64,000 nt of DNA from Sulfitobacter sp. EhC04 (lineage in GTDB: Bacteria > Pseudomonadota > Alphaproteobacteria > Rhodobacterales > Rhodobacteraceae), in contig NZ_LXYI01000023.1 in NCBI RefSeq assembly GCF_001650875.1, forward strand, positions 124,001-188,000. Reading direction: 5' to 3'. Of this stretch, positions 27,257 through 60,591 are shown one piece after another. The notes below the pieces were generated by a model. The model was not told the DNA's origin, did no database searches, and saw only the letters and a list, made by a program, of their open reading frames with translations. The position numbers and the translations under genes are program-made. How positions within the stretch are numbered: the first letter of the stretch is position 1; every line of letters starts with the position of its first letter.

Positions 27257-27298
27257 AAAGCGTTGATCTGGTCCGCCCGACAGGTGGGCAGATGCATG

Positions 27299-28308: not shown

Positions 28309-28332
28309 GATTCTCGAATATCTGGAAGTCTC

Positions 28333-28361: not shown

Positions 28362-28397
28362 GCGTATACGTCGTAAAGGGAATGTTAGGAGATACCG

Positions 28398-29429: not shown

Positions 29430-29458
29430 AACTTGGTTTTCACGGGAGGTAAATTGCG

Positions 29459-30334: not shown

Positions 30335-30367
30335 ATGCCATAGAGGTAGGCGGATTGTGTTGTTGTC

Positions 30368-30829: not shown

Positions 30830-31173
30830 GAGGCCCCATTGCAAAGCTGAAGCGTTTAGCGTTAATCCTGAATCGCCTAACACTTCCTAGAAATTATTAG
30901 TATTCACGCGTTGAGCGATTAAAGGCCGGACGCAGCAATGGAATAAACTGGCTTGCCAGCAAACCGCGTCTATTCTTGCGGACATCGGTGACCAGAGATG
31001 CATTCTTGTGGATATCAGAAATTTAAGCATGGATCGAGATTGCCCAGATGAAAAGAGATTTACCATTTTTGAGTTCTTTATAACCAATACGGCTATTTAT
31101 TTGGACGTTCGTCACTATGGTCGGAACTATTCATGATCGTCATCCTGGATTGAGCCATCAACCCCCCCCTTAC
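30830..31173. other. Gap between MarR and LysR genes
   Basis: A 344-base AT-rich stretch between convergent genes. No gene, clear terminator or recognisable mobile-element motif is seen. Confidence 0.5.
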
Positions 31174-45908: not shown

Positions 45909-45948
45909 CTCGGGTCCTGTCAAGCGGCGCATTTTTAATGCTGGATAT

Positions 45949-45966
45949 GCTGATAAAGAGATCAGC
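45949..45966. promoter_or_regulatory. Inverted repeat GCTGAT-N6-ATCAGC before the receptor
   Basis: GCTGAT-AAAGAG-ATCAGC with perfect 6-bp arms, 41 bases upstream of the receptor start, in an AT-rich promoter-like stretch. Candidate site for an iron regulator (Fur, RirA or Irr type); it does not fit a classic Fur box. Confidence 0.45.
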
Positions 45967-46019
45967 ACTCGCCTGGGAGTGACCTGGGTGGGCGCAACTT
46001 ACGGCTCTGCGGGTTGGTG

Positions 46020-46985
46020 TCAATCGGGTTCTGCGCCTTTTAAGGCACTTTGAAATTTCGGGGCAAGGCGCTGCGCGGCCCAGGGGATCGACAGTGGCGT
46101 CTGAAAGCTCATCGCGCCGGTTTCGTCTTCATCTGCCCAGACCGACCGGCCCTGTTGAGCAAGGCCACTGGCCTGATAGGCGGGCAGGGCTTCGATCAGT
46201 TCACGCCCAGCCGCATCGGCCAGCCACAGGGCCAGATCACGATCAAACAGGTCGATCCGTTCGAGGCTGACCGAAAAGTTGCCTGCCGCAGTTGCCAGCG
46301 TCGCGAATTCTTCGGGGGTTTCAAACCCCAGCGCGGCCATAAACCGGTTGGCGCCGTCTGCGGGGCCATATCCCACCAGCTTGGTGCCCGCCACATGGGC
46401 GATTGCGGCAGTGGCCCCGTCAAAGGCGGGGTATCTGGCGCGGGTGTCGGCCAGCACGTTTGCGACATCGGCAATCACCGCTTCGGCGCGGTCCTGCCGA
46501 CCCGTGGCACGGGCGATCAGGCGCAGTTCTTCTTGCCACGGCGCGCTCCAATCGGGGTAGCCCGCAGGCGGGCCGACCACAGGCGCGATACGCGACAGTT
46601 GGTCATAGGTGGCCGCGTCCATCGGCGCAAAGCTGGCCACAATCAGATCGGGCTGCAACTGCCAGACCCATTCCAGATCAATCTCGAACCCGCGCTGCAC
46701 CTGCGGCTCGGCACCTGCCGCCTTGCGCGCGGCACCTGCCGCCTTGCGCGCGGCATCTGCCCAGACCCATGTGGCAAAGGGGCGCGCGCCAAACCATTCG
46801 TGCACGCCTACGGGCGCAAGTCCAAGTGCATACAGAAAATCCTGCTCGTGATAGCCAACCGACACGATCCGCTGCGGTGGCGCATCAATGCGGGTGGTGC
46901 CAAAGCGGTGGGTGATCTCGAACGGCTCTGCCAACGCAGGTGCGGACATGAGAAACAGGAAAAACAGCAGGGCGGCGCGCATCAA
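46020..46985 (-). CDS. Periplasmic iron-siderophore-binding protein, FecB/FhuD type
   Basis: A 321-residue binding protein. The signal peptide ends at PALAE (about residue 19), then FEITHRFGTTRIDAPPQRIVSVGYHEQDFL, shown in two parts, the typical Peripla_BP_2 start. Residues 77-91 contain a duplicated heptad (ARKAAGA twice), from a 21-bp DNA tandem repeat. It would carry the Fe-siderophore from the TonB receptor to the FecCD-type permeases encoded divergently. Located 51 bases upstream of the receptor region on the same strand. Confidence 0.9.
   Translation of the reverse strand: MMRAALLFFLFLMSAPALAEPFEITHRFGTTRIDAPPQRIVSVGYHEQDFLYALGLAPVGVHEWFGARPFATWVWADAARKAAGAARKAAGAEPQVQRGFEIDLEWVWQLQPDLIVASFAPMDAATYDQLSRIAPVVGPPAGYPDWSAPWQEELRLIARATGRQDRAEAVIADVANVLADTRARYPAFDGATAAIAHVAGTKLVGYGPADGANRFMAALGFETPEEFATLATAAGNFSVSLERIDLFDRDLALWLADAAGRELIEALPAYQASGLAQQGRSVWADEDETGAMSFQTPLSIPWAAQRLAPKFQSALKGAEPD
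46709..46761. repeat. 21-bp tandem repeat inside the binding-protein gene
   Basis: Two identical 21-base units (46709-46729, 46730-46750), each starting CGGCACCTGCCGCC, and a partial third unit with one change. The length is a multiple of three, so the protein gains seven residues (ARKAAGA) without frameshift. A likely slippage product. Confidence 0.85.
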
Positions 46986-47162
46986 AGTCTCCTTGGGTGG
47001 GGGAAGTCGTGCGCCTGGCGTGTGCTGGGTGCGCGGACAATCCTTTGCCGCCGCCGCACTGTCAAGCCGTCCGCGGGGGTTGCGGACACAGGGTCTTGGG
47101 CGCTATCCCGTGCTCAGCCAGCCCTGTGCCCGCCAACGCTCCCCTGATGTCGATGGATTGCC

Positions 47163-48152
47163 ATGGCCCCGCTGCGCCCCCTGTATATGACCCTGTTGTT
47201 ATGGAGCCTTCTGGCGCTGGTGTTGCTCTGCGCCCTGCGGTTCGGCACGGCGCAGATGTCGACCGAGGCCCTGTTGCACGGCGACGCAGGATTGCTGCCG
47301 GGGCGCGGATTTCGTGCGGTCTGTGCCATGGCGGTGGGGGCGGCGCTGGCGGTGTCGGGGCTGATGCTGCAAAGCCTGACGGGCAATCCGCTGGCCGATC
47401 CGGGCATCACCGGTATCAATGCCGGGGCGGCGCTGATGGCGGTGGCAACGGCACAATTTCTGCCGCAATCGAGCGCTGCGCTGGTCATGGTCGCGGCGAT
47501 AGCAGGGGCCGGGCTGGCGGGGCTGACGCTGTGGGCGTTGGCTGGCGGCGACGCCGGACTGGGCAGCGAAGGCATAGCGCTGCGGCTGCCGTTGGCAGGG
47601 CTTGCCATCGAAGCCTTGTGCCTGTCGCTGGCGATGATGCTGATTCTGACAGATGCGCAATCGCAGGCGCGATATCTGCACTGGATTTCGGGCGCGATAC
47701 CCCCTGTTGCACGCGGTGAAACTCTCCCTCTTCTGGTGATTGCACTGTGCCTGATCGCAGGGGTCCTTTTGTGCAACAGGCTGTCGCTGCTGACACTGGG
47801 TGCGGATCAGAGCCACAGTCTGGGGCGTAACCCACGGGTTACCATCTCGATGACGCTGGCTCTGGTCACGGTGCTGTCGGGCGCGTCGGTGGCGATTGTC
47901 GGGCCGATTGCCTTTCTGGGGCTGCTGGTGCCCTTTGTCGCGCGCGGGCTGGCGGGGGCAGAGCTGCGGCGCGCCTATGGCTATTGTGTTCCGCTGGGGG
48001 CGGCGGTGTTGATGGCCAGCGATGTGGCCGGGCGGGTGATTGTGCGTCCGGGCGAGATTGACGCCGGATTGATCGTGGCCATGTTCGGGGGCGTCGGGTT
48101 GGTTGTGGTGCTGACACGGCTGCTGCCGCGCAGCGCAGGGGCGCAGACATGA
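47163..48152 (+). CDS. Iron-siderophore ABC permease, FecCD family (first)
   Basis: A 329-residue membrane protein with about nine hydrophobic segments. The FecCD signature region is GRGFRAVCAMAVGAALAVSG then LMLQSLTGNPLADPGITGIN, and PIAFLGLLVPFVARGLAG is the coupling region. The ribosome site is weak; a second ATG at 47187 is possible. It overlaps the next permease by four bases (ATGA). Confidence 0.9.
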   Translation: MAPLRPLYMTLLLWSLLALVLLCALRFGTAQMSTEALLHGDAGLLPGRGFRAVCAMAVGAALAVSGLMLQSLTGNPLADPGITGINAGAALMAVATAQFLPQSSAALVMVAAIAGAGLAGLTLWALAGGDAGLGSEGIALRLPLAGLAIEALCLSLAMMLILTDAQSQARYLHWISGAIPPVARGETLPLLVIALCLIAGVLLCNRLSLLTLGADQSHSLGRNPRVTISMTLALVTVLSGASVAIVGPIAFLGLLVPFVARGLAGAELRRAYGYCVPLGAAVLMASDVAGRVIVRPGEIDAGLIVAMFGGVGLVVVLTRLLPRSAGAQT

Positions 48153-49090
48153 GGCGGACTGTCTTGCTGCCCATGATGCTGTTGCTATTGGTCTGGCTGG
48201 GACTGGCGGGCGGGCGCAACTGGCTTGGCCCGGTGGCGCTGGTGCAGGGGCTGTTGGATACACAGGATTTCCTGATGTACGGGCTGCGATTGCCCCGCGT
48301 GCTGATTGCTGTGGGGGCGGGCATGGCGCTGGGGATGGCGGGTGCGTTGATGCAGGGGCTGACGCGCAACCCGCTGGCGACGCCGGATATCATCGGGCTG
48401 ACGCAGGGGGCGGGGCTTGGCTTTGCCATTGCGCTGCTGTTCGACCTGCCACTGCTGGCAGGCGCGGCCTGCGGCGCGGCACTTGTGATGCTTTGCGTGA
48501 CTGCACTGGCACAGGGGCGCGGGGCGCTGGCCTTTGTGCTGTTCGGCATCGGGGTCGGGGCCACAGCGGCGGCGGCCACGACGGTGCTATTGGTTCTGGC
48601 ACCGGATGCCAAAGCCGCCCGCGCGATGATCTGGCTTTCGGGGTCCCTGGCGCGTGCCGATCTGGCAACCGCCGGCTGGGTATGGCTGGTTTTGCTGACA
48701 GGTGGGGTGCTGGCGGCACTGCGCGCGCATCGGCTGGGGTTGCTGTGGTTGGGCGACGAGGTGATGGCATCGCTGGGTGTTGATCTGTCGCAGATGCGGG
48801 TTCTGGTGCTCGGTCTTGTCACCGCGCTGACAGCGGCCAGCACATTGGCAGTGGGCCCCATCGGCTTTGTCGCCTTTGTCGCAGCGCCGCTGGCCCGTGC
48901 GATAACCGGGGCCGAAGCGCCCGCGATCTGGCCCGCCGCGCTGACCGGCGCCTGTCTGCTGGTGGCGGCTGATCTGATGGCGCGTCTGATCGCACCTGTA
49001 GCCGTGTTCCCGACGGGTTTGGTCATGGGCGTGATCGGCGCACCCTATCTGATTTTCTTTCTCTGGCGCGACCGGCAGGAGGCCCGCTGA
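48149..49090 (+). CDS. Iron-siderophore ABC permease, FecCD family (second)
   Basis: A 313-residue FecCD protein with RLPRVLIAVGAGMALGMAG, LMQGLTRNPLATPDIIGLTQG and PIGFVAFVAAPLARAITGAE. Together with the preceding protein it makes the heterodimeric channel. It overlaps the ATPase gene by one base (TGATG), so all three are co-translated. Confidence 0.9.
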   Translation: MRRTVLLPMMLLLLVWLGLAGGRNWLGPVALVQGLLDTQDFLMYGLRLPRVLIAVGAGMALGMAGALMQGLTRNPLATPDIIGLTQGAGLGFAIALLFDLPLLAGAACGAALVMLCVTALAQGRGALAFVLFGIGVGATAAAATTVLLVLAPDAKAARAMIWLSGSLARADLATAGWVWLVLLTGGVLAALRAHRLGLLWLGDEVMASLGVDLSQMRVLVLGLVTALTAASTLAVGPIGFVAFVAAPLARAITGAEAPAIWPAALTGACLLVAADLMARLIAPVAVFPTGLVMGVIGAPYLIFFLWRDRQEAR

Positions 49091-49872
49091 TGACTGACCC
49101 CCTATTCAACATCGAAAACCTGTCGCTGCGGCTTGGGGGCCGCCAGATTTATGACGGGTTCTCTGCTGTCTTGCCTAGCGGTGGGCTGACCGGGATTGTC
49201 GGGCCGAACGGTTGCGGGAAATCCACATTGCTGCGCTGCCTTGCCGGCGTGCAGCAGCCCGATGCCGGTCGGATCACATTTCAAGGCCATCCGTTGACGC
49301 AGCTTGCAGCTGTCGAGCGCGCGCAATGCATGGCCTACCTGCCGCAGAACCCGCCGGTGGTGCCGGATATGAGCGTTGGCGGGCTGGTTGCCAAGGGGCG
49401 TACCCCCTGGCGCAAGGCTTTCCGGCCGCTCTCTGGCGCCGATCATGACGCCATCGAAAGCGCCCTGGCGGCGACAGAGCTGTCGGACCTGAGCGCAACC
49501 CGTCTGAGCGCGCTGTCGGGCGGGCAGCGGCAGCGGGTCTGGCTCGCCTTGGCACTGGCGCAGGACACGCCGGTGATCCTGCTGGACGAACCCACCGCAT
49601 TTCTGGATTTGCAGCATCAATTGTCACTGTTGCGTCTGCTGCGCCAGCTTGCGGATGACCAGCAGCGCAGTATCGTGATGGTGCTGCATGAACTGACCCT
49701 TGCGGGGCGGTTCTGCGACCAGGTGCTGGGGTTGCGCGACGGGCAGTTGATTTGCGCAGGCCCGGCAGAGCAGGCGATTACGCCCCGGACGGTCGCGGCA
49801 CTTTATGACTTGGAGGCAGATGTGGCCCGCGACCCCGTCTTTGGCAAACCTGTGGTTTTTCCGCGCGAATAA
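49090..49872 (+). CDS. Iron-siderophore ABC ATP-binding protein, FecE/FepC type
   Basis: A 260-residue ATPase with Walker A GPNGCGKSTLLRCLAG, the FepC-type RGRTPW-like sequence VAKGRTPWRKAFRPLSGAD, signature LSGGQRQRVWLALAL and Walker B VILLDEPTAFLDL. AGGAGG lies 7 bases before the ATG. Last gene of the permease operon; a convergent hairpin separates it from the NRPS. Confidence 0.93.
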   Translation: MTDPLFNIENLSLRLGGRQIYDGFSAVLPSGGLTGIVGPNGCGKSTLLRCLAGVQQPDAGRITFQGHPLTQLAAVERAQCMAYLPQNPPVVPDMSVGGLVAKGRTPWRKAFRPLSGADHDAIESALAATELSDLSATRLSALSGGQRQRVWLALALAQDTPVILLDEPTAFLDLQHQLSLLRLLRQLADDQQRSIVMVLHELTLAGRFCDQVLGLRDGQLICAGPAEQAITPRTVAALYDLEADVARDPVFGKPVVFPRE

Positions 49873-49877
49873 GTCGC

Positions 49878-49908
49878 GGTCTGGCGGGGTTTCTGCCGCC
49901 GCCAGACC
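49878..49908. terminator. Bidirectional terminator hairpin
   Basis: 10-bp perfect arms GGTCTGGCGG and CCGCCAGACC with an 11-base loop, in the 42-base space between convergent FepC-type ATPase and NRPS stops. No long T run. Confidence 0.65.
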
Positions 49909-49914
49909 TCATGG

Positions 49915-52900
49915 CTAACCCATCGCAAAGGCCACATTCAGGCGCGCACGAAACCGTTCGTGAAAGGCCGGATCGCCGATGATGTGCAGATGGTTTGTGC
50001 CGCTTACAATCTCGGCCGGTGTGGCGCGGGCCGACCATTTGCGCCAGTCCATCAGGTTCAGTCCGCGGCTCAGGCTATCGCCCGCGCTGAACGAAGCAAC
50101 AGGGACATCCAGGGGCATCAGCCGGTGCTGGCGGAACACTAGCGCGTTGTCGATCAGCACCCAGAACGTATGTTCGCGGCTGGAAATGTCCGGCCCGTCA
50201 AAGGGCAGGGGGTCTGCCTCGTTGCCGATGAACCGCAGGAACTGCGCATAGCATTCGGCATCCATCGCGCCGATCAGCTGATCCCATTGCGCGCGCATCT
50301 GTGTGCGGGCCAGCCATGCCTGCAAGTAGGCTTCAAGCTGCGCGCGTTCGCCGGGGGCAAAGACCGGCGTGGCACCGGGGGTAAAATCGGTGCCCAGATC
50401 GCAGACATCGACCATGCCCAGCATTTTCACATCAACCTCGTGCTGCAATTGCCGTGCGGCCTCCCATGCCAGCAACCCGCCCCAGGACCAGCCCAGAAAC
50501 GCCACCGGCGCGCCCGCGCTTTCGCGGCGGATGTGATCGACGTAATCGGCCACCACGTCCGACACCGACACGTTCAACTGCTTTTCCTCGTTCAGTGAAT
50601 GGCACAGGAACCCCGTCACAGGTTGATCCGGCCCCAGGTAATCGGTCAGCCGCAAATACTCGCGGGTTGAGACCAGCAGCCCCGGAAAGCAATAGAGCCG
50701 GGGCCGCGTGCCGCCCGCGCGCAGGGTGATGGCGGTGCGTCCGGTCTGCCCGCCCTGTGCGATGCGTGCGCAAATGCCACGCACGGTGGGCGCATCGAAG
50801 AAATCGGCGACGGTCAGCGGCACGTCGGGCCACAGTTTGCGCATCCCCGCAATGGCCCTGAGCGCCAGCAGGGACGACCCGCCCATGGCAAAGAAATCAT
50901 CCGTCACGCCAATGTCAGGCAGCGTCAGAAGATCACGCCAAAGCGTCAGCACCTGTTGTTCGGATCCCGAAACGGCTGCAACGCCAAGCGTCTGGCGGTT
51001 GCGCGCCTCGGGCAGGGGCAGGGCGGCGCGGTCCAGTTTAGCGTTGGGGTTGGTTGGCATCTTGTCCAGGACCACCACCGCCTCGGCCAGCATGTGTTTG
51101 GGCAGTTTGGTCTCTAATGCGCGGCGCAGGGCCTCTTCGGCCCCCGGCGCGGGGCCGGTGACATAGGCGATCAGACGTTTGGTTGCGCCCTCTTCGCGTA
51201 GCAGCACCAGTGCCTCGGTCACATCCGGTTCGGCCAGCAATGCCGCCTCGATTTCGCCGGGTTCGATGCGATAGCCGTTGATCTTGATCTGCAAATCGAC
51301 GCGGCCCACGAATTCAACGGTGCCATCCTCGCGCCAGCGGCCCTGATCGCCGGTACGGTACAGACGTGCGCCCGAGGTTCCGTCCAGCGCAGGCCCGAAG
51401 GGGTCGGGAATGAAACGGTCGGCAGTGACCTTCGGCTGCCCGACATAACCGCGTGCAACACCGGTGCCGCCCAGATAAATCTCGCCGACCACCCCTTGCG
51501 GGCAGGGCATCATGTCTTCGTCCAGCACATAGACCCGCCTGTCGCCCACCGCACGACCCAGCGGCGCATAGGTGCCCTGAAACCCTGTGCCTGCGGCCAC
51601 TTTCCAGACCATCGGCGTCATGATGGTTTCGGTCGGACCATAGCCGTTGATCAGTGTCTTGGCGTTCAGGGCACGGCTGAGCAGGTCGAATGTGGATTGC
51701 GCCAGCCCCTCGCCGCCAAAGGAATACAGCCGCATCGGCGGGGCGGTGCCGGTGTCTTCGGCCCATTCGGCCAGTTGCTGCAAATAGGTCGTGGGGATCG
51801 AGGCATTGTTGCAGCCGTGTTCGCGCATCGCCCCAAGGGTCTGTTCCGGTGTCCACAGCGGCCCGTCGGGGATCACCACCGAGCCACCCATCATCAGCGG
51901 CACCATCCAGCGTTCATGCCCGCCGTCTGAGGAAAACGGCAGGAACGGCAGTTCGCGGCTTTCGGCGCTCATTTCATAGACCCGCGCGGTGGTCTGGTTG
52001 TGGTGTGACAGGGGGCCATGTTCCACCGCCACGCCCTTGGGCTTGCCGGTGGAGCCCGAGGTATACATCACATAGGCGAGTTGGTCTGGGTGGATCGTGA
52101 CCGGGGGCGCATCGGCGCGCGGTGCATCGTCAAGATCATCCAGGCAGATGACCTGCGCCGCCAACGCGTCGGGCAGCCGGTCACGGAATCGCTGGCGGGT
52201 CAGGACCACGGCAACACCCGCATCGGTCAGGATGTGGTGATTGCGGCTGCTGGGGTGGTCAGGTTCGACCGGGATATAAGCACCGCCCGCTTTCAGCACG
52301 GCAAGGATCGCCACAATCGCATCTGCGCCGCGTTCGATCAGGATCGCAACAGGCGTTTCTGCCCCGACACCGGCGGCGCACAGCCGGTGCGCCAGCGCAT
52401 TGGCGCGTGTGTTCAGTTCAAGGTGGGTCAGGCGGTCTGCCCTGCAGATGACCGCGACCTTGTCAGGTGTGGTCAGGGCGTGGGCGGCGATAATCTCGTG
52501 GGTGGCCCTTGGATCAATCGGGGTGTCGTCGGGGTACGGGGCCGACAGGGCGTCCAGCTCTGCGGTATCAAGCAGGGGTATGCGCCCGACGGGCAGGTCG
52601 GGGTGGTCGAAGCCCGCGCATAGAACCCGTTCCAGATGTTGCAGAAACCGCTCGATCAGGGGTGGTTCGAACAGGGCGGCGTCGGCATCGGCATGCAGCA
52701 CGATGCCGTCCGGTGTGCCTTGGGCGGTCAGCACCAGTTCCTCGGCGCTGGGGGGCATCGGGCGATGATGGTGGCTGATCCCATCGGGCAGGTCGCGGTG
52801 CGCGCGCATGTATAACGAGATTGCCCCCAAAGGATGCGGGTCGGCATCGGCATGGGCAAGATGGTCCTGTACCAGAGTTTCCGACGGCACGGGCGGGGCA

Positions 52901-53769
52901 GCGGTCAGGGCGCGGGCGGTCAGTTGCACCGCATCGCCAAACGGCGCCGTCAGGTCCGGCGCAAGGCACAGGGGGCGCGGATCGGTGCTGCGCCGCTCTG
53001 CGCTTTGAGGGGGCAAGGCAATGGCGAAACGCAGGGCGTCCTGCGCACCGTATCGGCGCAAAACGATGCCGAGTGCGGCACCCAAATGGGCTGCCATATC
53101 GGCGTCGGAAACGCTGGTGGCGACCTGATCCGGCAATATGATCTGGCGGGCAAAGCGTTTGGTGGCAGGCGGCAGCTGACCGGCGGACACATAGCGGTGC
53201 GGCAGGCGCGCGATCTGGTGGCTGTTCATCAGGTCGCGCCACTGGGTGCGGGCGTGCGCGGGCTGAATATCTGATGCAGGGACCGGCAGCGCATCGGGTG
53301 CATTGCGCAGGTCCAAAGCATCCCAAAGCGCGGTTTCAATGCTGTGGAATGTCGCGTCATCCCCCAAGATGGGGTGCAGCACCAGGGTCAGGATATGCCC
53401 CGCGTTGTCATCAGCCCACAGATCGGCGTAGCTGGGTTGCCCCGTCAGATCGGGCGTGTGGGTTGCGGCATGGGCGCGGGCACGGTCAAGGCCTGAGTCC
53501 GCGTGTATCACCAGTTCCGTGTGACCTGTGCCCTGCCGTTCCACCGCGCCGCCTGCATGGGTTACAAACGCGGCGGTAAAGGCCGGATGCTGCGCCAGAA
53601 CATCATTGATCCCGGCCACCAGATCGGCTCGGGCATAACGGTGGTCAAACCCCAATATCAGTGTCTCGAAGCCAAAGGGGCCCAGTTCTCCCACATGGTC
53701 GTGGGCATAGATGCGACGTTCGATCAGGGTCAGCGGCCGGGCGGTCGGGGTGATGAAATCCTTGCTCAT
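49915..53769 (-). CDS. Single-module NRPS, C-A-T-TE (EntF-like layout)
   Basis: A 1284-residue synthetase with one condensation domain (about 10-430), one adenylation domain (about 455-930; YVMYTSGSTGKPKG, NGYGPTET, YRTGDQGRW, IKINGYRIEPGEIEAA), one carrier domain (GGSSL, Ser966) and a thioesterase (GWSWGG, Ser1095; His near 1260). This is the order and length of EntF. No 2,3-dihydroxybenzoate genes are present. The condensation motif HHxxxDG reads H132-P-I-L-G-D-D138, so the catalytic second His and the Gly are gone. The start is at 53769 (GGAGG upstream, ATGA overlap with mbtH), although the frame is open to 53940. It probably joins N5-acyl-N5-hydroxyornithine units iteratively, with the thioesterase releasing a cyclic or linear oligomer. 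Confidence 0.92.
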   Translation of the reverse strand: MSKDFITPTARPLTLIERRIYAHDHVGELGPFGFETLILGFDHRYARADLVAGINDVLAQHPAFTAAFVTHAGGAVERQGTGHTELVIHADSGLDRARAHAATHTPDLTGQPSYADLWADDNAGHILTLVLHPILGDDATFHSIETALWDALDLRNAPDALPVPASDIQPAHARTQWRDLMNSHQIARLPHRYVSAGQLPPATKRFARQIILPDQVATSVSDADMAAHLGAALGIVLRRYGAQDALRFAIALPPQSAERRSTDPRPLCLAPDLTAPFGDAVQLTARALTAAPPVPSETLVQDHLAHADADPHPLGAISLYMRAHRDLPDGISHHHRPMPPSAEELVLTAQGTPDGIVLHADADAALFEPPLIERFLQHLERVLCAGFDHPDLPVGRIPLLDTAELDALSAPYPDDTPIDPRATHEIIAAHALTTPDKVAVICRADRLTHLELNTRANALAHRLCAAGVGAETPVAILIERGADAIVAILAVLKAGGAYIPVEPDHPSSRNHHILTDAGVAVVLTRQRFRDRLPDALAAQVICLDDLDDAPRADAPPVTIHPDQLAYVMYTSGSTGKPKGVAVEHGPLSHHNQTTARVYEMSAESRELPFLPFSSDGGHERWMVPLMMGGSVVIPDGPLWTPEQTLGAMREHGCNNASIPTTYLQQLAEWAEDTGTAPPMRLYSFGGEGLAQSTFDLLSRALNAKTLINGYGPTETIMTPMVWKVAAGTGFQGTYAPLGRAVGDRRVYVLDEDMMPCPQGVVGEIYLGGTGVARGYVGQPKVTADRFIPDPFGPALDGTSGARLYRTGDQGRWREDGTVEFVGRVDLQIKINGYRIEPGEIEAALLAEPDVTEALVLLREEGATKRLIAYVTGPAPGAEEALRRALETKLPKHMLAEAVVVLDKMPTNPNAKLDRAALPLPEARNRQTLGVAAVSGSEQQVLTLWRDLLTLPDIGVTDDFFAMGGSSLLALRAIAGMRKLWPDVPLTVADFFDAPTVRGICARIAQGGQTGRTAITLRAGGTRPRLYCFPGLLVSTREYLRLTDYLGPDQPVTGFLCHSLNEEKQLNVSVSDVVADYVDHIRRESAGAPVAFLGWSWGGLLAWEAARQLQHEVDVKMLGMVDVCDLGTDFTPGATPVFAPGERAQLEAYLQAWLARTQMRAQWDQLIGAMDAECYAQFLRFIGNEADPLPFDGPDISSREHTFWVLIDNALVFRQHRLMPLDVPVASFSAGDSLSRGLNLMDWRKWSARATPAEIVSGTNHLHIIGDPAFHERFRARLNVAFAMG

Positions 53770-53969
53770 GCCAATGCCTCCTGCACGCTCAGGGGGCGCA
53801 TGTCGGTCCACAGTGCGCTGATCCGGTCGAGACATTCGGAGCGCAAAGCGGCGTCGCCCACAGGCGTCCAGCCCGCGGGGACGGGGTGTGTGGCGCGCAC
53901 CATCGAATAGCGCCCCTCGTGATTGCGCAGAACGCGCCACAGGATCTGAGTGTCGTTGGGCAGGGTCAT
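53766..53969 (-). CDS. MbtH-like protein
   Basis: A 67-residue NRPS chaperone. The family marks are NHEGRYSM (N-x-E-x-x-YS), VPAGW and WTDMRPLSV. It binds the adenylation domain and supports its folding and activity. The frame is open upstream to 54131, but AGGA precedes the ATG at 53969. Its stop overlaps the NRPS start (ATGA), so the two are made together. Confidence 0.9.
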   Translation of the reverse strand: MTLPNDTQILWRVLRNHEGRYSMVRATHPVPAGWTPVGDAALRSECLDRISALWTDMRPLSVQEALA

Positions 53970-54014
53970 CTGGGTTTTCCTTTCAGCTCTTTCCCTGCTG
54001 ACGTTTCGGGGTCT

Positions 54015-54062
54015 GGAAAATTCACCGGCCCGAAAAAATTTTCCGCAACGGGTGAATTTCCC
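54015..54062. promoter_or_regulatory. Repeat-rich divergent promoter region of the siderophore genes
   Basis: GGAAAATTCACC (54015-54026) and GGTGAATTTCCC (54051-54062) are inverted with one mismatch; between them AATTTTCC (54037-54044) is a further inverted copy of GGAAAATT. The 133-base gap between mbtH and the exporter must hold both promoters, so these AT-rich repeats in GC-rich DNA are candidates for iron-regulator or sigma-factor sites. Confidence 0.5.
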
Positions 54063-54102
54063 GCGCGCTGCCGCGTCCTGTGACCAAGACGAGGAGAAAC
54101 AT

Positions 54103-55428
54103 ATGGCCGACAGCGAACTGTCTGATCCCAACCTGCACCGCCTGATGTGGCGGCTGGGCCTGCCTGCGATGGCTGGGCTGTCGCTGAATGCATTGCATCA
54201 GGCGGTCGATGCGGCCTTTGTCGGGCGTCTGGGGGGTGATGCGCTGGCCGCCCTTGTGCTGCTGGCCCCGCTGGCCGGTCTGGTCGCGGCGGCGGGGATC
54301 GGGTTGGGCATAGGTGCTGCCAGCGCCACCGCCAGATCACTGGGCGCAGGCCAACCGGATCAGGCACGCGCGGTGGCGGGGGTGTCGATGGTGGCCGCAC
54401 TGGCGCTGGCAGTTTGCGCCGTTGGCGGGCTGCTGGCATTTGGTGACGCGCTGTTGCACCTGCTGGGTGCACGGGGCGAATTGCTGGCAACCGCGCGGCC
54501 CTATCTGGCGATACAATCTCTCACCATCGGCTGTGCCATCTTGCAGATCCTTTGCGATTTTCTGGCCATCGGGCGCGGCAATGCGGCCTTCAGTCTGAAA
54601 ACGCTGGCGCTGTGCTTTGGCCTGAACATCATCCTTGATCCGGTGTTCATCTTTGGCCTGGATCTTGGTCTGTCAGGGGCGGCATGGGCGACACTGTGCG
54701 CGCAGGGTGTGACCCTGTGCGTCTGGGCCTGGCACTTTTGCGCGCCCCGCCGCCGTCCGACCCCTGGACCTATGCGCCTGTTGGGGCCGGTGCTGCGCGT
54801 CGGGTTGCCCGAAGCGGCGGCGGTCGCGGTGACGACGCTGAGCCTGATGGCCCTGTTACGCATCGCCACCGCCTTTGGCGGCGCGGATGATGTGGCGGCG
54901 TTGGGCATTGCGCTGCGTCTGGTCTTTGTCGTGATGTTGCCGCTGGAAGGATTTGCCATTGGTATTCAGCCGATCCTGTCCCATGCCCATGGCAGCGCCA
55001 ATGGCGCGCGGTTTACGGCCACCTTGCGCAGGATCCTCTACGTTTGCGGGGCGATCACCATCGTGCTTTCCATACTGTTCAGTGTCGGCGCGCGCCCCTT
55101 GGTGCGGCTGTTTGTGATTGATCCCGCCATCGTGGCGCAGGCCGCTGTCATGTTGTCTTATCTTGCCCTTTCCCTGCCCGCGATTGCGCTGCGCCTGTGC
55201 GCGCAGATCAGCCTGCAAGCCACGGTGCAGCCGCGCTTGGCAACCCTTCTGGGCCTTGCCCCGATGGGTTGGCTGCTGTGGCCCGCGATGGCGCTGACGG
55301 TGCCGTTGTTCGGCCCCATCGGCATAGCCATCGCAGTTCTCGTTGCGGCATGGCTGGCCGCCCTGTTGGCGCTGGTCCCGATCCGCGCTGCCCTTTTCCC
55401 CCTTTCACCTACCGGAGCTTCTGTATGA
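54103..55428 (+). CDS. MATE family efflux protein, probable siderophore exporter
   Basis: A 441-residue membrane protein with about twelve hydrophobic segments and the two MATE repeats: LMWRLGLPAMAGLSLNALHQAVDAAFVGRLGGDALAAL, seen in parts, and VLRVGLPEAAAVAVTTL in the second half. GAGGAG lies before the ATG at 54103; the open frame extends to 53950. It overlaps the PLP enzyme gene (ATGA) and is the first gene of the biosynthetic operon divergent from the NRPS, which suggests export of the finished siderophore. Confidence 0.88.
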   Translation: MADSELSDPNLHRLMWRLGLPAMAGLSLNALHQAVDAAFVGRLGGDALAALVLLAPLAGLVAAAGIGLGIGAASATARSLGAGQPDQARAVAGVSMVAALALAVCAVGGLLAFGDALLHLLGARGELLATARPYLAIQSLTIGCAILQILCDFLAIGRGNAAFSLKTLALCFGLNIILDPVFIFGLDLGLSGAAWATLCAQGVTLCVWAWHFCAPRRRPTPGPMRLLGPVLRVGLPEAAAVAVTTLSLMALLRIATAFGGADDVAALGIALRLVFVVMLPLEGFAIGIQPILSHAHGSANGARFTATLRRILYVCGAITIVLSILFSVGARPLVRLFVIDPAIVAQAAVMLSYLALSLPAIALRLCAQISLQATVQPRLATLLGLAPMGWLLWPAMALTVPLFGPIGIAIAVLVAAWLAALLALVPIRAALFPLSPTGASV

Positions 55429-56591
55429 CCCGTACCCCACCCACAGCTGACCTGATTTCGCCATCGCGCCCCGTGCCCCATGACGCCAGTGCCACGCCGA
55501 TCTTTCAAAGCAGTTCGTTCCTGTTCGACAGCTATGCGCAAATCGAGGATGTCTTTGCCGGACGCTCTGACAGGTTCATCTATTCGCGCGGCGACAATCC
55601 GACGGTTTGCGAATTGGAAGACCTGATTGCGCGGCTGGAGGGTGCCGAGGCCGCGCGCGGGTTCTCGTCGGGGATGGCGGCAATCTGCGGGGCGGTGTTG
55701 CCCTTTGTGCAGGCCGGCGACCGCATCGTTGCGGTTGAACATCTGTATTCCGACGCATTCCGCCTGTTTGAAACGGTGCTGGCGCGGTTCGGGGTTGAAA
55801 CCATCTATGTCGATGGCACCGACACGCAGGCGATGATCGACGCGCTGGAGGGCGCGCGGCTGGTCTATCTGGAAAGCCCGACGTCGTGGACGTTCCGCCT
55901 GCAAGACCTGCGGGCCGTCGCGACCGAGGCACGGCGTCTGGGGGTCATTTCGGTGATCGACAACAGTTGGGCCACGCCGCTGTTTCAGCGCCCGCACGAT
56001 ATGGGTGTCGATCTGGTGGTGCATGCGGCGTCAAAATACCTGTCGGGCCACAGCGACACGCTGGGCGGGCTGGTCACCGGATCGCGCGAGATGATCCGGC
56101 GTATCGACCACGAGGCGACCCATCTGTTCGGCGGGCGGATGTCGCCGATGGATGCGTTTCTGGTGCTGCGTGGGATGCGCACGCTGGATATGCGGATGGC
56201 GCGCCATATGCAAACGGGCCTGAGGCTGGCGCAGGGTTTGGCGGACCATCCGCAGGTTACGGCGGTGCATCACCCCGGATTACTGGCCACCCGCCCCGAC
56301 GGGCTGAGCGGTTTTGGGGGGTTGTTCGCATTCGATCTGGCCGCCGGTGTGGATGTCCCGCGCTTTTGCGATGCGCTGCGCATGATCCGCATCGGTGTCA
56401 GCTGGGGCGGGCCCGAAAGCCTGATTGTTCCGGGTCAGGCGGCTTGCGGGCTGGCGGGGGCGGCAAATGTGTTTCAACGGTTCGGGGTCAGCCCGCGCAC
56501 CATTAGGCTGGCGGCGGGGCTGGAACCTGCGGACCTGCTGATGGATGATTTGCACACTGCCTTGCACGCGGCGCAAGAGGTTGCAGCGTGA
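55425..56591 (+). CDS. Cys/Met metabolism (CGS family) PLP-dependent enzyme
   Basis: A 388-residue fold-type I PLP enzyme. Visible are YSRGDNPTVCELEDLIARLEG (in part), GFSSGMAAICGAVL, VIDNSWATPLFQRPHDMGVD, and the Schiff-base lysine in HAASKYLSGHSDTLGG (about residue 204). The family does gamma- or beta-elimination and replacement on amino acids such as cystathionine, homoserine esters and methionine. Embedded in a siderophore operon, overlapping the exporter and esterase genes, it may build an unusual amino or acyl precursor; that is inference. GGAG 8 bases before the ATG supports the start. Confidence 0.85.
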   Translation: MTRTPPTADLISPSRPVPHDASATPIFQSSSFLFDSYAQIEDVFAGRSDRFIYSRGDNPTVCELEDLIARLEGAEAARGFSSGMAAICGAVLPFVQAGDRIVAVEHLYSDAFRLFETVLARFGVETIYVDGTDTQAMIDALEGARLVYLESPTSWTFRLQDLRAVATEARRLGVISVIDNSWATPLFQRPHDMGVDLVVHAASKYLSGHSDTLGGLVTGSREMIRRIDHEATHLFGGRMSPMDAFLVLRGMRTLDMRMARHMQTGLRLAQGLADHPQVTAVHHPGLLATRPDGLSGFGGLFAFDLAAGVDVPRFCDALRMIRIGVSWGGPESLIVPGQAACGLAGAANVFQRFGVSPRTIRLAAGLEPADLLMDDLHTALHAAQEVAA

Positions 56592-57499
56592 TGCGGGATG
56601 TTGTGGCAGAAGGCGTGGCCGACTGTGGCGGCACCCGCTGGTTTGATCTGAAGGACAGCCAGACCGGCGACATCCGCCGTGTGTTCCTGTGGGTGCCGCA
56701 GGGCGAAGCCCCCGCCGCAGGGTGGCCCGCGCTGTGGCTGCTGGATGGCAACGCGGTGATCGGCACAGCGGTTGATGTGATGCGCGCACAGGCGTTCTGG
56801 CCCACGGGGACCAACCTGGGCTGGGGCGTGTTGATCGCAGTGGGCTATCCGACCGACGAGGCCTACGATTCCTTTCGCCGCAGTTGGGATCTGGGGCCGC
56901 CGCCGGGGCATAGCTATCCGCCTTTCACCCCCGATGGTCCTGAGGTCAGGACTGGTGGCGGTGCGGAAATGGCGCGGTTCTTGCTGGAAGACGTGGGCGG
57001 TTTTCTTGCCGGTCAGGTCGCGCTTGATCCGGCGCGCCAGTCGCTGTTCGGCCATTCCTTTGGTGGGCTGTTCGCGCTGTGGCTGATGTTCACCCGCCCC
57101 GATGCCTTTGCCAACTGGATTGCGGCCAGCCCGGCGATCACATGGGAAGACAGTTTCCTGCTGGACCATCTGGACCGTTTCGACGCGGGCGACCATCGGC
57201 TGCGTGTGCATCTGTCGGCCGGCGAATGGGAGGGTGAGGCGCTGGCACCGTTTCAGGCCGGCGGCCCCGAAGCTGCCGAAAGACTGGCGGAAAAGGCTAG
57301 GACCCGCACTGTCGGTGCCGCGCAAGAGATGGCCGCCGCCCTGTCTGCGCGTGGCGTGACCACCCGGATCGAAATCTACCCGGACGAGACGCATATGTCG
57401 GTGTTGCCGGTGGCAGTGAACCGCGCGCTTCGCTGGGCTTTTGCCCTTGCTGACACGCAGACCGAGCCTGCGTTCCCACAGACCAAAGAAAGGACCTGA
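56591..57499 (+). CDS. Alpha/beta hydrolase, Fes/IroE-like siderophore esterase
   Basis: A 302-residue esterase of the IroE/Fes type. The nucleophile elbow is FGHSFGGLFALW (about residues 156-167), the acid region is ASPAITWED, and the histidine is in DETHMSV near the end. Such enzymes hydrolyse ester bonds of triscatecholate or hydroxamate macrolactones to release iron. GTG at 56588 is also in frame; I choose the ATG at 56591 that overlaps the PLP gene stop. Its presence in the operon implies that the siderophore contains ester links. Confidence 0.85.
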   Translation: MRDVVAEGVADCGGTRWFDLKDSQTGDIRRVFLWVPQGEAPAAGWPALWLLDGNAVIGTAVDVMRAQAFWPTGTNLGWGVLIAVGYPTDEAYDSFRRSWDLGPPPGHSYPPFTPDGPEVRTGGGAEMARFLLEDVGGFLAGQVALDPARQSLFGHSFGGLFALWLMFTRPDAFANWIAASPAITWEDSFLLDHLDRFDAGDHRLRVHLSAGEWEGEALAPFQAGGPEAAERLAEKARTRTVGAAQEMAAALSARGVTTRIEIYPDETHMSVLPVAVNRALRWAFALADTQTEPAFPQTKERT

Positions 57500-57501
57500 T
57501 T

Positions 57502-58554
57502 GTGGCTTTTGATATGCCTTTGACAGATCGACCGGTGGCACAGCGCGCTGCGGACCATGTGCGGGTTGGCGCAGACGTTGCCTTGCCGCTGCGTGATACA
57601 GGCGACGGCAGGCTGGACCTGACTGCGACACCGAACCTGAGCATCGCACAGGCGCTTGCGGCCTTTGAGGCGCTGAGTGCCGAGGGCGGCGAGGTCGCCA
57701 TCCGGCTGGACGGGGCTGAATGGGAAGGCCTGCTGCTGCAGCTTGCCGCAATGGGCGTCGCAACACCCATTGGTGCTGCGCATTGGGTGCTGCCGGTGGC
57801 GTTCTGGCAGGTGCCGGACCGCTGGATCATGCACCCGACACCGCCGTGGCCGACGCTGTGGCAAACCGGCACCAACGGGCGCCACCCTGTGCGCCCGCCG
57901 AAACCTGTGGGCCCCTTGTACCGTCGCCACATTCCCTGGCTGGACCAGCACCTTGAACTGCGCGCGGCGGATATGGAGGATCTGGCGGTCTATCACCGGT
58001 GGCAGAACGACCCGCGCGTCGCCGCATTCTTTGAAGAGGCCGGCACGCTGGAGGCCCACCGAAAAACCCTGCAAACCCTGATTGCAGACCCGCATATCCT
58101 GCCGGTGATCGGCAGCCTGAACGGGCGCGATTTTGGGTATTTCGAGCTGTATTGGGCGCGCGAAAACCGGATTGGCGGGGTCTATGACGCCGATCCGTGG
58201 GATCGTGGCTGGCATGTGCTGATCGGTGAGGACAACATGCGCGGCGCAGACTATGTCACCGCCTGGATGCCCTCGCTGATGCACTACATGTTTCTGGCAG
58301 AGCCGCGCACGCAGGCGCTGATGGGTGAGCCGAAGGCAAGCCATCTCAAACAGCTCAAGAACCTGGGGCGCGGCGGCTTTGCCCATGTGCGCGATTTCGA
58401 CTTTTCCCACAAACGCGCAACACTGGTGCGACTGGAACGCCAGCACTTTTTCGAATCCCGCATTTGGGCACGCCCTGAAACAGGGCCCGACACCGATCTG
58501 GGTACGCCGCTGGCCCTGTCACTTACAAACATGCTTGGCACAGGAGAAGAATGA
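57502..58554 (+). CDS. N-hydroxy-amine acyltransferase, IucB/SidF/VbsA-like GNAT
   Basis: A 350-residue protein. The first 130 residues are a family-specific N-terminal region, and the second half is the siderophore acyltransferase GNAT domain: YHRWQNDPRVAAFFEE, GYFELYWARENRIGG, DRGWHVLIGEDNMRGADY, and EPKASHLKQLKNLGRGGFAHV. It transfers an acyl group from acyl-CoA to a hydroxylamine to make a hydroxamate. It starts with GTG (57502), preceded by AAAGGA, and overlaps the monooxygenase by four bases. The acyl group (acetyl or a hydroxyacyl) cannot be read. Confidence 0.85.
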   Translation: MAFDMPLTDRPVAQRAADHVRVGADVALPLRDTGDGRLDLTATPNLSIAQALAAFEALSAEGGEVAIRLDGAEWEGLLLQLAAMGVATPIGAAHWVLPVAFWQVPDRWIMHPTPPWPTLWQTGTNGRHPVRPPKPVGPLYRRHIPWLDQHLELRAADMEDLAVYHRWQNDPRVAAFFEEAGTLEAHRKTLQTLIADPHILPVIGSLNGRDFGYFELYWARENRIGGVYDADPWDRGWHVLIGEDNMRGADYVTAWMPSLMHYMFLAEPRTQALMGEPKASHLKQLKNLGRGGFAHVRDFDFSHKRATLVRLERQHFFESRIWARPETGPDTDLGTPLALSLTNMLGTGEE

Positions 58555-59831
58555 TGACCGATATGAACGCGCAACAACTGGATGTTATTGGCATAGGTTT
58601 TGGTCCATCGAACCTTGCGCTGGCCGTTGCCTTGCACGAACGCGGCAGCCGCCTGCGCACGCGGTTTCTTGAGGCCAGACCCGCCTTTGCGTGGCATCCC
58701 GACATGATGCTGGCCGGCACCGACATGCAGGTGTCATTCCTGAAAGATCTGGTGTCCCTGCGCAATCCGCGCAGCGGGTTTTCGTTCCTCAGCTACCTGC
58801 ACGCCAAGGGACGGTTGACGCGCTTTATCAACCGCAAGACGTTCTTCCCCAGCCGGGAAGAGTTTAACGACTATCTGGGCTGGATCGCGGGGCAGTTTTC
58901 CAACTGTTGCTACGACAGCCGTGTTACCGCCATTGAACCCGTGCAGGCGGGCGAACGGGTGACCCATCTGGCGGTGCACAGCGAAAGCCGCGACGGCAGG
59001 CAAGCGCGTCATTTGACCCGCAATCTGGTGCTGGCACCGGGGGGCAAGCCCCATTGGCCCGATGCTTTTGCACCCCTGCAAGACAGAGGTCGCGTGATCC
59101 ACAGCTGTGACTATCTTTCGCAGGTTGTTCCCAAGCTGAAGCCGGGCCAGCGCATCGCCGTGATTGGCGCGGGTCAAAGTGCTGCCGAGGTGTTTGCCGA
59201 TCTTGCCGCCCGCCCAGAGCAGCTACAGATCGACATGATCCTGCGGGGCAGGGCGATCAAACCGTCTGATGACACGCCCTTTGTGAACGAAATTTTTGAT
59301 CCGGCACAAACAGACCGCTTTCACGGTCTGCCATCAGAGGTGCGGGCGCAGACCCTGCACAGCCTTGCGGCAACAAACTATGCGGTGACTGACGCGGATC
59401 TGATCGAACATATCTATGACACGCTTTATGCGCAGGACGTGCGCGGCGACGACCGTCTGGACCTGCTGGCGGAAACCCAGGTGCAGGGCGCACAACAGGT
59501 TGGCGCCCAGATCAGTCTGCGGTTGTCAGGGCCGTCTGGGTCGCGTGCCCAAGGGTATGATCTTGTGGTGTTGGGGACAGGATACCAGCGTGCGCTGGAG
59601 CAGTCGGTTCTGGCAAACCTGAGCACCTGGCAGACCGCGCAAGAGCCGGATCGCGACTACCGGTTGCCGATGAATGACGCATTCGAACCGGCGATTTTTG
59701 TTCAAGGCTTTAGCGAAGCCACACACGGGTTGAGCGATACTTTGCTTTCGGTTCTGGCCTTGCGATCAGACGAGATTGCGCAACAACTTGAGACTTTGCA
59801 CGGGTCCACCTCTGCCATCGCTGCGGAGTGA
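58551..59831 (+). CDS. L-ornithine N5-monooxygenase-type flavoprotein (SidA/PvdA-like)
   Basis: A 426-residue N-hydroxylating monooxygenase. The FAD motif is GIGFGPSNLALAVAL (residues 14-28), the substrate region FAWHPDMMLAGTDMQVSFLKD and LVSLRNPRSGFSFLSYLHAKG, and the NADPH motif RIAVIGAGQSAAEVF. GFGPSNLAL and DMQVSFLKDLV with SFLSYLH are closer to the ornithine enzymes SidA/PvdA than to the lysine enzyme IucD. It hydroxylates the side-chain amine with NADPH and O2, the first step of hydroxamate formation. Start is ATG 58551 (ATGA overlap) or 58554. Last gene of the operon, followed by a hairpin. Confidence 0.9.
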   Translation: MMTDMNAQQLDVIGIGFGPSNLALAVALHERGSRLRTRFLEARPAFAWHPDMMLAGTDMQVSFLKDLVSLRNPRSGFSFLSYLHAKGRLTRFINRKTFFPSREEFNDYLGWIAGQFSNCCYDSRVTAIEPVQAGERVTHLAVHSESRDGRQARHLTRNLVLAPGGKPHWPDAFAPLQDRGRVIHSCDYLSQVVPKLKPGQRIAVIGAGQSAAEVFADLAARPEQLQIDMILRGRAIKPSDDTPFVNEIFDPAQTDRFHGLPSEVRAQTLHSLAATNYAVTDADLIEHIYDTLYAQDVRGDDRLDLLAETQVQGAQQVGAQISLRLSGPSGSRAQGYDLVVLGTGYQRALEQSVLANLSTWQTAQEPDRDYRLPMNDAFEPAIFVQGFSEATHGLSDTLLSVLALRSDEIAQQLETLHGSTSAIAAE

Positions 59832-59839
59832 TCCATTGA

Positions 59840-59866
59840 ACCGCCTCTGTAAAATGCAGGGGCGGT
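59840..59866 (+). terminator. Hairpin after the monooxygenase
   Basis: ACCGCCTCTG and CAGGGGCGGT with a 7-base loop, with one G-U pair in RNA, nine bases after the stop. No T run. Confidence 0.5.
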
Positions 59867-60003
59867 CAATACACGTATTAAGCGAAAAAGTGCCCATTCC
59901 GTTACCTTCGCGTATTGCGGTGACCATGGGTTGGGGGTACAGGTGCCACAGGTCCACTCAGCTTGCGCGCTAGGCAGACACATCGTCGTGTCCTTTCCAA
60001 ATT

Positions 60004-60591
60004 ATGCGCAAAATGATGGCCCAATCACGAGAATCTGCCCCCTCTGGCTGTGCGATGGCGCGGCAGGAATTACTGCGTCACCTGATTGACGAGCGTGAAA
60101 TGCTTCTGTGCGATGCAATGCGCATTATTGGTAACCGTGACCGCGCCGAAGATGTCGTGCAGGATGCGGCCATGCGGTGTCTGAACAGCAAGGCCATAGG
60201 CGTGGAAATTGCGAGCCCGCGCGGGTTTCTGCGCCGGATCGTGCGCAATCTGGCACTGGACCACCTGCGCCGCGAGCTACGTGAAGGGGCGGCACCGCTT
60301 GAGCCGGGCGATGACCTGATGTGTGACAAACCCACGGCCGAAACGCAGTTGCAAGACAGCCAACGCTTGAGACGGCTGGCCGAAGGGTTGATGAAGCTGC
60401 CAGCCCGCGACACCAACATAATTTTCGCGCACCGCCTGAGAGTCGAAAGCCAAAAGGACATTGCACAACGATTTGGTCTGTCGCCTGCCAGAATAAACGG
60501 GATCATAACCCGTTCGCAGAAAATGCTGGTCGCTTATGTGAACGCCGCAGATGCCAATGGCATGGCGGATCAGTCTGACGCGCGCCAATAG
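60004..60591 (+). CDS. ECF sigma factor, FecI/PvdS-like iron-starvation type
   Basis: A 195-residue sigma factor with region 2 (RDRAEDVVQDAAMRCLN, about 39-55; SPRGFLRRIVRNLALDHLRRE) and region 4 (KLPARDTNIIFAHRLRVESQ then KDIAQRFGLSPARINGIITRS). The length and the DVVQDA motif fit FecI-like sigma factors. No FecR anti-sigma gene is adjacent, and the TonB receptor lacks a signalling domain, so control by iron at the transcription level, as for PvdS, is likelier. It stands 172 bases after the biosynthetic operon and probably directs it. Confidence 0.88.
   Translation: MRKMMAQSRESAPSGCAMARQELLRHLIDEREMLLCDAMRIIGNRDRAEDVVQDAAMRCLNSKAIGVEIASPRGFLRRIVRNLALDHLRRELREGAAPLEPGDDLMCDKPTAETQLQDSQRLRRLAEGLMKLPARDTNIIFAHRLRVESQKDIAQRFGLSPARINGIITRSQKMLVAYVNAADANGMADQSDARQ

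Follow-up and report, generated by a model that had tools for sequence, protein, structure and literature searches.

A vicibactin-type siderophore gene cluster with a predicted desacetyl trilactone product in a Pseudosulfitobacter-like bacterium

In the 64,000-nucleotide stretch of DNA analysed here (the window), siderophore genes form a block of about 17 kb, which is flanked by different neighbours in different genomes. It begins with uptake genes. The minus strand encodes a TonB-dependent siderophore receptor (43752..45968; TIGR01783, 349.8 bits, above cut-off) and a periplasmic ferri-siderophore binding protein (46020..46985; Peripla_BP_2). The plus strand encodes a FecCD-type permease (47163..48152), a second permease (48149..49090; 37% identical to part of R. 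etli FhuB), and an ABC ATPase (49090..49872). Two divergent operons follow. The operon on the minus strand encodes an NRPS (49915..53769) and an MbtH-like protein (53766..53969). The operon on the plus strand encodes a MATE exporter (54103..55428), a PLP-dependent Cys/Met-fold enzyme (55425..56591), a putative siderophore esterase with a GHSFGG nucleophile motif (56588..57499), a putative hydroxyornithine N5-acyltransferase of the VbsA/SidF type (57502..58554), and a putative L-ornithine N5-hydroxylase of the PvdA/SidA lineage (58551..59831). Between the operons are two ECF-type promoter-like sites, TGAATTT-N14-CGTC, one facing mbtH-NRPS (54000..54024, minus strand) and the other facing the MATE-PLP-esterase-acyltransferase-hydroxylase operon (54053..54077, plus strand). 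An ECF-type sigma factor gene (60004..60591, plus strand) adjoins the cluster, as that of RpoI does. No FhuF is found among the genes of 43752-60591. A sequence-only reading of 49915-59831 had named the NRPS, MbtH, MATE, esterase, acyltransferase, and hydroxylase genes, all of which are found there. It had left out the PLP gene inside the operon, the sigma factor gene, and, at 43752-49872, the genes for the receptor and the ABC proteins.

By sequence comparison, 49915-59831 is a vicibactin-type cluster, a variant of a known system, because the PLP enzyme is 53% identical to VbsL and the NRPS is 50% identical to VbsS end to end (1316 aligned positions) with the same ten specificity residues. 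Vicibactin is a cyclic tri-ester of N2-acetyl-N5-hydroxy-D-ornithine and (R)-3-hydroxybutyrate. The clusters compared are those of R. etli CFN 42 (p42f) and R. johnstonii 3841 (pRL12), and identities were computed against the R. etli CFN 42 genes. The records of both species carry no vbs names; we assigned these via the annotated products and the gene order of the vbs cluster. The sequence-only reading had expected an iterative, ester-linked hydroxamate following vicibactin or fusarinine logic, and we judge this to be right on the strength of the apparent VbsS, VbsL, VbsA, VbsD, and VbsG counterparts. It had also expected a different gene content, which mostly does not hold: besides the NRPS and the PLP enzyme, the acyltransferase matches VbsA (52% over 225 amino acids), the MATE exporter VbsD (38%), and the MbtH-like protein VbsG (41%). 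The divergent operons, adjoining ECF sigma factor, nearby uptake genes, adenylation code, and promoter distance are also shared. What remains of the expectation is that no VbsC and no adjacent VbsP-type PPTase is found here, that the esterase lies inside the operon, and that the hydroxylase is only 30% identical to VbsO. In addition, there are two permease genes here and one long FhuB in R. etli and R. johnstonii. The receptor shares just 31% identity with FhuA of R. johnstonii, so its ligand may also differ. The closest characterised pathway known to us is about 50% identical, and thus not the near-identical one for which the earlier reading had allowed.

The NRPS has 1284 amino acids counted from its likely start; the longest open frame starts further upstream, inside the MbtH gene. 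Its A, T, and TE domains exceed the Pfam cut-offs. The N-terminal domain scores 19 bits only, against a Condensation cut-off of 30.6. A missing condensation domain is nevertheless ruled out, and the order C-A-T-TE with an apparently divergent C domain stands, because the predicted fold (pLDDT 90.5) matches C and X domains (best Foldseek E 2.4e-24) and the orthologous region of the R. etli NRPS scores 117.6 bits. The motif x-H-x4-D replaces the standard HHxxxDG, and all 30 of the 30 rows compared retain its H and D. The ten adenylation specificity residues, D-G-E-S-S-G-G-M-T-K, were placed by hand, and are the same in all 56 rows of the VbsS family, R. etli included. The NRPS falls within this family. 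In a quickly built, midpoint-rooted tree, the 20 Rhodobacterales rows form a clade (support 100) that groups with Methylopila and the lineage of R. etli and R. johnstonii (support 92), and the R. tropici group stands apart from it. A class-wide survey with a C-domain alignment matched 27 of 385 genomes, mostly C domains within much longer open frames. More vbs-type clusters are possible among these 27 (e.g., a 1372-amino-acid frame in the genome labelled G283).

The PLP enzyme, which is a predicted acyl-hydroxyornithine epimerase like R. etli VbsL of the vicibactin pathway, has the motif HAASKY found in 56 of 56 VbsL relatives. The overlooked gene is the diagnostic gene of the cluster type. 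According to PMC12971057, the antiSMASH metallophore rule detects vicibactin by the VbsL gene.

The hydroxylase is not a VbsO orthologue. Its best solved relative is 3s5w, an L-ornithine 5-monooxygenase (E 1.9e-103), which we take to be PvdA. The cluster hydroxylase matches 3s5w with 349.5 bits vs 135 for VbsO, whose best match is 6xbb (213.2). Going by these scores, the enzyme is of another lineage than the lysine-hydroxylase-like VbsO, and the role of ornithine hydroxylase appears to be filled. The best solved relative of the acyltransferase is SidF (7qf6, E 1.6e-49). As a parallel to fusarinine biosynthesis in Aspergillus, the solved relatives of the cluster enzymes include a SidA-type hydroxylase, a SidF-type acyltransferase, and fungal siderophore esterases. 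Fusarinine C and triacetylfusarinine C are, like vicibactin, cyclic ester-linked trimers of acyl-hydroxyornithine. The Aspergillus route uses another NRPS, L-ornithine without an epimerase, and anhydromevalonyl acyl groups.

Most of the same gene set is found in clusters of other Rhodobacterales, including Pseudosulfitobacter, Sulfitobacter, Paracoccus, Gemmobacter, Thioclava, Tritonibacter, Leisingera, and others. In P. pseudonitzschiae H46, the order is identical from the receptor through the sigma factor, and the cluster is on a 250-kb plasmid. The literature already contains a mention of a vicibactin-like cluster in P. pseudonitzschiae. Among the literature matches listed, there is no study of the product or promoters of this cluster. 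Among the Rhodobacterales genomes (labelled L), the esterase lies outside the operon in L009, and L004, L013, and L085 have no match to the cluster MATE protein.

The promoter-like pair common to the divergent operons is new here. TGAATTn-N14-CGTC is found on 39 of 40 strands between the divergent operons of 20 Rhodobacterales clusters. The spacer is 14 every time with 10-20 permitted, and shuffles predict 0.13 strands. In the vbs clusters of R. etli, R. johnstonii, and R. binae, the sequence is TAAA(T/C)-N16-CGTC both ways, with the same layout and the same 21-base distance, so that the difference is at the -35 position (TGAATT here vs TAAA(T/C)). The adjoining sigma factor is only 30% identical to R. 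etli RpoI. In the window, TGAATT-n-(10-20)-CGTC has one extra match (28083, minus strand); no match precedes the receptor, binding-protein, permease, or sigma factor genes. In the whole genome, GTGAATT-N15-CGTC occurs five times (reversed-pattern control, zero), and two of the five are the divergent pair. A wider sigma regulon was considered and rejected: at the three other sites, the 160 bases downstream, with ORFs inspected at one, give no sign of an iron gene, and these sites are provisionally taken as chance.

From these genes the following pathway can be proposed. The hydroxylase would produce N5-hydroxy-L-ornithine, which the SidF/VbsA-type enzyme would acylate, probably with (R)-3-hydroxybutyrate out of PHB-type metabolism. 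The NRPS A domain, aided by MbtH, would place the acylated unit on the T domain, and the VbsL-type enzyme would convert its alpha carbon to the D configuration. The TE domain would then link three units head to tail via the acyl hydroxyl groups and close the ring. C-domain chemistry would be unneeded, because the amide (hydroxamate) bond is formed off the NRPS. Because no VbsC is found, the N2 amines are expected to remain unmodified, and the product would be a desacetyl (fusarinine C-like) trilactone. Vicibactin 7101 is desacetyl vicibactin, and the predicted product is identical to it in kind. Calculated by hand, the neutral mass of this trilactone would be about 648.33 (about 701.25 as the ferric complex), compared to about 774.36 for vicibactin. 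The MATE protein would export the siderophore, the receptor and ABC proteins would bring the ferric form back, and the esterase would open the lactone to free iron. The adjoining ECF sigma factor would turn on both divergent operons via the TGAATTn-N14-CGTC promoters, presumably under iron control. Elsewhere in the genome there are PPTases and an acetoacetyl-CoA reductase above cut-off. We give this proposal as a whole, a vicibactin-type island with ECF-driven divergent operons making a desacetyl fusarinine C-like trilactone, a probability of roughly three in four. The low identities of the hydroxylase to VbsO and of the sigma factor to RpoI count against it.

The desacetyl product depends on VbsC. 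In a similarity search at E<=0.001, VbsC has no match in the own genome; the same search finds it in 7 of 12 Rhizobiales and 1 of 18 Rhodobacterales genomes. No score exceeds 28 bits in 16 of the 17 other Rhodobacterales genomes, compared to 169-225 bits for true relatives. The exception, Paracoccus siganidrum (L012), is inside the Rhodobacterales clade and has both VbsC and the esterase. Throughout the search, weak matches of 21-28 bits (L010, L011, L047, and L056) were scored as absent. As this absence is a similarity search result, another GNAT could acetylate N2. The product would then be true triacetylated vicibactin, its N2-acetyl groups supplied by an unrelated acetyltransferase whose gene lies outside the cluster. 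In favour of this, almost every other vbs function is present and a member of the same clade has VbsC. A first pass also gave 6-14 candidate places per VbsC-less Rhodobacterales genome, so other acetyltransferases may exist. However, none of these places scores as VbsC, and with the search results above we consider the acetylated product unlikely.

The esterase is no guide in this question. Its best solved relative is 6guo (E 4.1e-32), a fungal putative siderophore-degrading esterase (Eurofung), and others include BES, ferric enterobactin esterases, triacetylfusarinine C esterase, and IroE. Possibly 6guo is EstA, an enterobactin esterase of A. nidulans. EstA activity as an enterobactin esterase is described in PMC10500206. 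Taking the esterase as SidJ-like support for a desacetyl product was dropped, given the putative name of 6guo and its possible identity with EstA. The kinship of the esterase does not reveal its substrate, because the solved relatives act on both catechol and acetylated hydroxamate trilactones and the esterase is present in 4 of 8 VbsC-bearing genomes. It is present in 22 of 22 VbsC-less ones (n=30; Fisher p 0.0026). No association with VbsC is claimed, because a tree-corrected comparison has 3-4 independent pairs only (sign test p 1). A swap in which Rhodobacterales would have an esterase where Rhizobiales have VbsC, as a table of genes in the locus had suggested, was overturned by whole-genome searches: besides L012 with both, 8 of 12 Rhizobiales genomes have a strong esterase match of 265-301 bits (L025, L056, L044, L045, L057, L070, L071, and L081).

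A different hydroxyacyl chain might also serve as the acyl group. With a longer 3-hydroxyacyl or anhydromevalonyl-like chain, the same trilactone build would be a new structure, and this would fit with an alignment to VbsA that spans 225 residues only and with SidF, an anhydromevalonyl transferase, as the best solved relative. But there is no SidH/SidI-like hydratase or acyl-CoA ligase among the cluster genes, the acetoacetyl-CoA reductase is available, and the adenylation code is that of VbsS, which makes such a chain quite improbable. An enterobactin-like trilactone with catechol genes elsewhere in the genome, suggested by the EntF domain order and by EntF (5ja1) and enterobactin esterases among the solved relatives, is practically excluded by the sequences: the EntF family model gives the NRPS 297.3 against a cut-off of 2400, the code is the VbsS one and presumably not the serine set, and neither EntE (TIGR02275) nor EntC (TIGR00543) is above cut-off in the whole genome though controls pass (2/14 and 7/14, respectively), which bears out the sequence-only reading of an EntF-like order without catechol genes. 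The serine or threonine code combined with catechol genes that would have spoken against that reading is not found.

Beyond the desacetyl vicibactin-type proposal, one may tentatively think of a distinct Rhodobacterales form of the vicibactin pathway, although we find it rather doubtful. It would make an unacetylated trilactone whose iron is freed by a dedicated esterase, with a regular ornithine hydroxylase replacing VbsO and a sigma factor that has its own, shifted -35 sequence and serves only this operon pair. X domains dock oxygenases. Similarly, the C domain without the standard HHxxxDG may be kept because VbsL and other trans-acting enzymes could dock on it.

These findings place in marine Rhodobacterales a type of hydroxamate siderophore pathway that is mainly known from rhizobia. 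For the close relative P. pseudonitzschiae, the host or source in records includes diatoms such as Skeletonema and Thalassiosira. The cluster supplies a siderophore mass and structure to seek, and predicts a two-promoter regulon under one sigma factor. No new class of chemistry is opened, but the cluster would offer a natural comparison between acetylated and unacetylated vicibactin.

The siderophore genes at 43752-60591 encode uptake proteins (a TonB-dependent receptor, a ferri-siderophore binding protein, two permeases, and an ATPase), a C-A-T-TE NRPS, MbtH, a MATE exporter, a PLP enzyme, a siderophore esterase, a GNAT acyltransferase, an ornithine-hydroxylase-family enzyme, and an ECF-type sigma factor. 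Together they make up a variant of the Rhizobium vicibactin system. The sequence-only reading was right to see a siderophore cluster at 49915-59831, and the enzymes it named are present among the cluster genes. Its biosynthetic logic, an iterative, ester-linked hydroxamate, was well guessed. The NRPS (49915-53769) aligns with VbsS end to end (50% over 1316 positions) and has the same specificity residues. These residues, D-G-E-S-S-G-G-M-T-K, hand-placed on A-domain motifs, are identical in 56 of 56 VbsS-family rows (54 loci and the window, R. etli being counted twice). In the window protein the T motif (GGSS) and the TE motif (GWSWGG) are both intact.

The PLP gene (55425-56591) had been overlooked in that earlier gene list. 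Its product shares 53% identity with R. etli VbsL and matches the NCBIfam subfamily PRK05968 over the cut-off (545.2 bits); L-alanine/L-glutamate racemase 9iz5 is a further relative. The motif HAASKY is found in 56 of 56 VbsL relatives and is taken to contain the lysine that binds PLP. For the Rhizobium records, vbs names were assigned here from annotated products and gene order. The cluster belongs to the wider VbsS/VbsL class and departs from vicibactin proper at VbsC and VbsO. According to one paper, VbsL is the acyl-hydroxyornithine epimerase by which the antiSMASH metallophore rule recognizes vicibactin (PMC12971057).

While vicibactin has the N2-acetyltransferase VbsC, a similarity search found no match to it in the window's own genome (4.85 Mb). 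Among 30 genomes, true VbsC relatives (at least 169 bits) exist in eight, Paracoccus siganidrum (L012) and seven of the 12 Rhizobiales. The same search found none in the window's genome, 16 other Rhodobacterales, and the Rhizobiales of loci L025, L056, L057, L071, and L081. On the 54-row NRPS tree the VbsC label needs five changes, with rows outside the 30 genomes labeled from locus content alone.

Another difference is the hydroxylase, which is only 30% identical to VbsO and whose nearest solved structure is the L-ornithine 5-monooxygenase 3s5w. Hydroxylase type, judged from the locus table, changes once on the tree of the 30 genomes. VbsO is described as the sole ornithine enzyme akin to lysine hydroxylases (PMC7347517). 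The cluster genes also differ from those of vicibactin in lacking a VbsP-type PPTase; PPTases are found on contigs C8 and C30 of the same genome. A second NRPS/PKS-like region lies on C30, outside the window (~22784-31695), with an AMP-binding domain in a 1667-aa frame, a reductase-like match in a 2174-aa frame, and, adjoining these frames, a phosphopantetheinyl transferase.

Among solved relatives, the esterase is closest to the fungal putative siderophore-degrading esterase 6guo and to BES. Strong matches also occur in eight of 12 Rhizobiales genomes, so it is not limited to the window lineage. The sequence does not by itself indicate a substrate. In Sulfitobacter sp. DFL-14 (L009) the operon lacks the esterase, and a copy 84% identical to that of the window lies elsewhere in the genome, on a contig numbered 46 as is that of the locus record (~43 kb before the locus if the contig is the same).

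The N-terminal domain of the NRPS (52528-53751) is predicted by structure modeling and Foldseek to have a C-domain fold, with x-H-x4-D standing where HHxxxDG is expected. Both the H and the D are conserved in all 30 aligned rows, which were drawn from 55 distinct sequences. Pfam Condensation scores are 19 and 30.4 bits in the two Rhodobacterales proteins scanned, versus 117.6 bits in R. etli. In the vicibactin scheme VbsA makes the hydroxamate amide and the TE makes the ester bonds, and a condensation reaction is therefore unnecessary. The teicoplanin X domain, which docks partner enzymes, is the rank 4 Foldseek match (21% identity).

The gap separating mbtH from the MATE gene (53970-54102) contains two divergent TGAATTT-N14-CGTC sites, one on each strand. 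In 20 Rhodobacterales clusters (the window, L002-L017, L047, L085, and L087; L082, repeating P. pseudonitzschiae, was omitted), TGAATTn-N-CGTC is found on 39 of 40 strands; 19 clusters have it both ways, and it is missing only from the reverse strand of L017. The spacer is 14 in every site although 10 to 20 was allowed, and Markov shuffles give 0.13 strands expected per set. The three Rhizobiales clusters scanned (R. etli, R. johnstonii, and R. binae) have TAAA(T/C)-N16-CGTC in both orientations in the corresponding region, at the same 21-base distance. Going by the title of a 2002 report by Carter, the Rhizobium sigma RpoI is reportedly required for vbs gene expression in other genera. We infer that the adjacent ECF-type sigma reads the TGAATTT-N14-CGTC sites as putative promoters.

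G+C is 64-66% in the 2-kb bins of 46001-58000 and 50-62% in the remaining bins of the window, below 61% in all except one. Also in the window is a catabolic island (14802-42552). To judge by their starts, two of its genes resemble acyl-CoA dehydrogenases. It further has a P450 with a 2Fe-2S ferredoxin, an FAD monooxygenase, a gene of the dienelactone hydrolase family, and cupin and FAA-hydrolase genes of the kind seen in gentisate breakdown; one 1172-aa protein carries POR and DUF6537 domains. The NRPS is ~86% identical to copies on P. pseudonitzschiae plasmids. The acyltransferase is 87% identical to that of P. pseudonitzschiae (L002) and 88.9% to that of Pseudosulfitobacter sp. DSM 107133. 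These two are the nearest named relatives among those found, in searches that may omit records of this genome itself or of very close ones. The host is probably a Pseudosulfitobacter or a near relative. P. pseudonitzschiae H46 has the same genes in the same order amid different neighbours on a 250-kb plasmid, which suggests that the block moves as one piece. Its distribution is patchy; in a class-wide draw, the C-domain profile had no match in one same-genus and three same-family genomes. On a quick, midpoint-rooted NRPS tree (supports 90-92, long branches flagged), Rhodobacterales are nearest, followed by the R. etli/R. johnstonii lineage with Methylopila, ahead of the R. tropici type.

The acyltransferase also occurs without VbsL in Bradyrhizobium, Methylobacterium, and other loci (L018-L024, L026-L041, L043, L046, L050, L053, L063, L065, L066, L073, and L075), all except L038 having hydroxylase and NRPS-like matches. 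These are probably other hydroxamate pathways built from related parts.

In earlier work, a vicibactin-like NRPS cluster, said to include a glutamine synthetase gene, has a single mention for P. pseudonitzschiae SW (PMC12376047). No such gene was seen in the window's cluster. Other papers describe Paracoccus NRPS clusters partially similar to vicibactin and other siderophores (PMC8273931) and Rhizobiales plasmids with vicibactin-like clusters (PMC10434180). What is new and of most use is the prediction of a desacetyl product, together with the different lineage of the hydroxylase and the conservation of the promoter-like pair.
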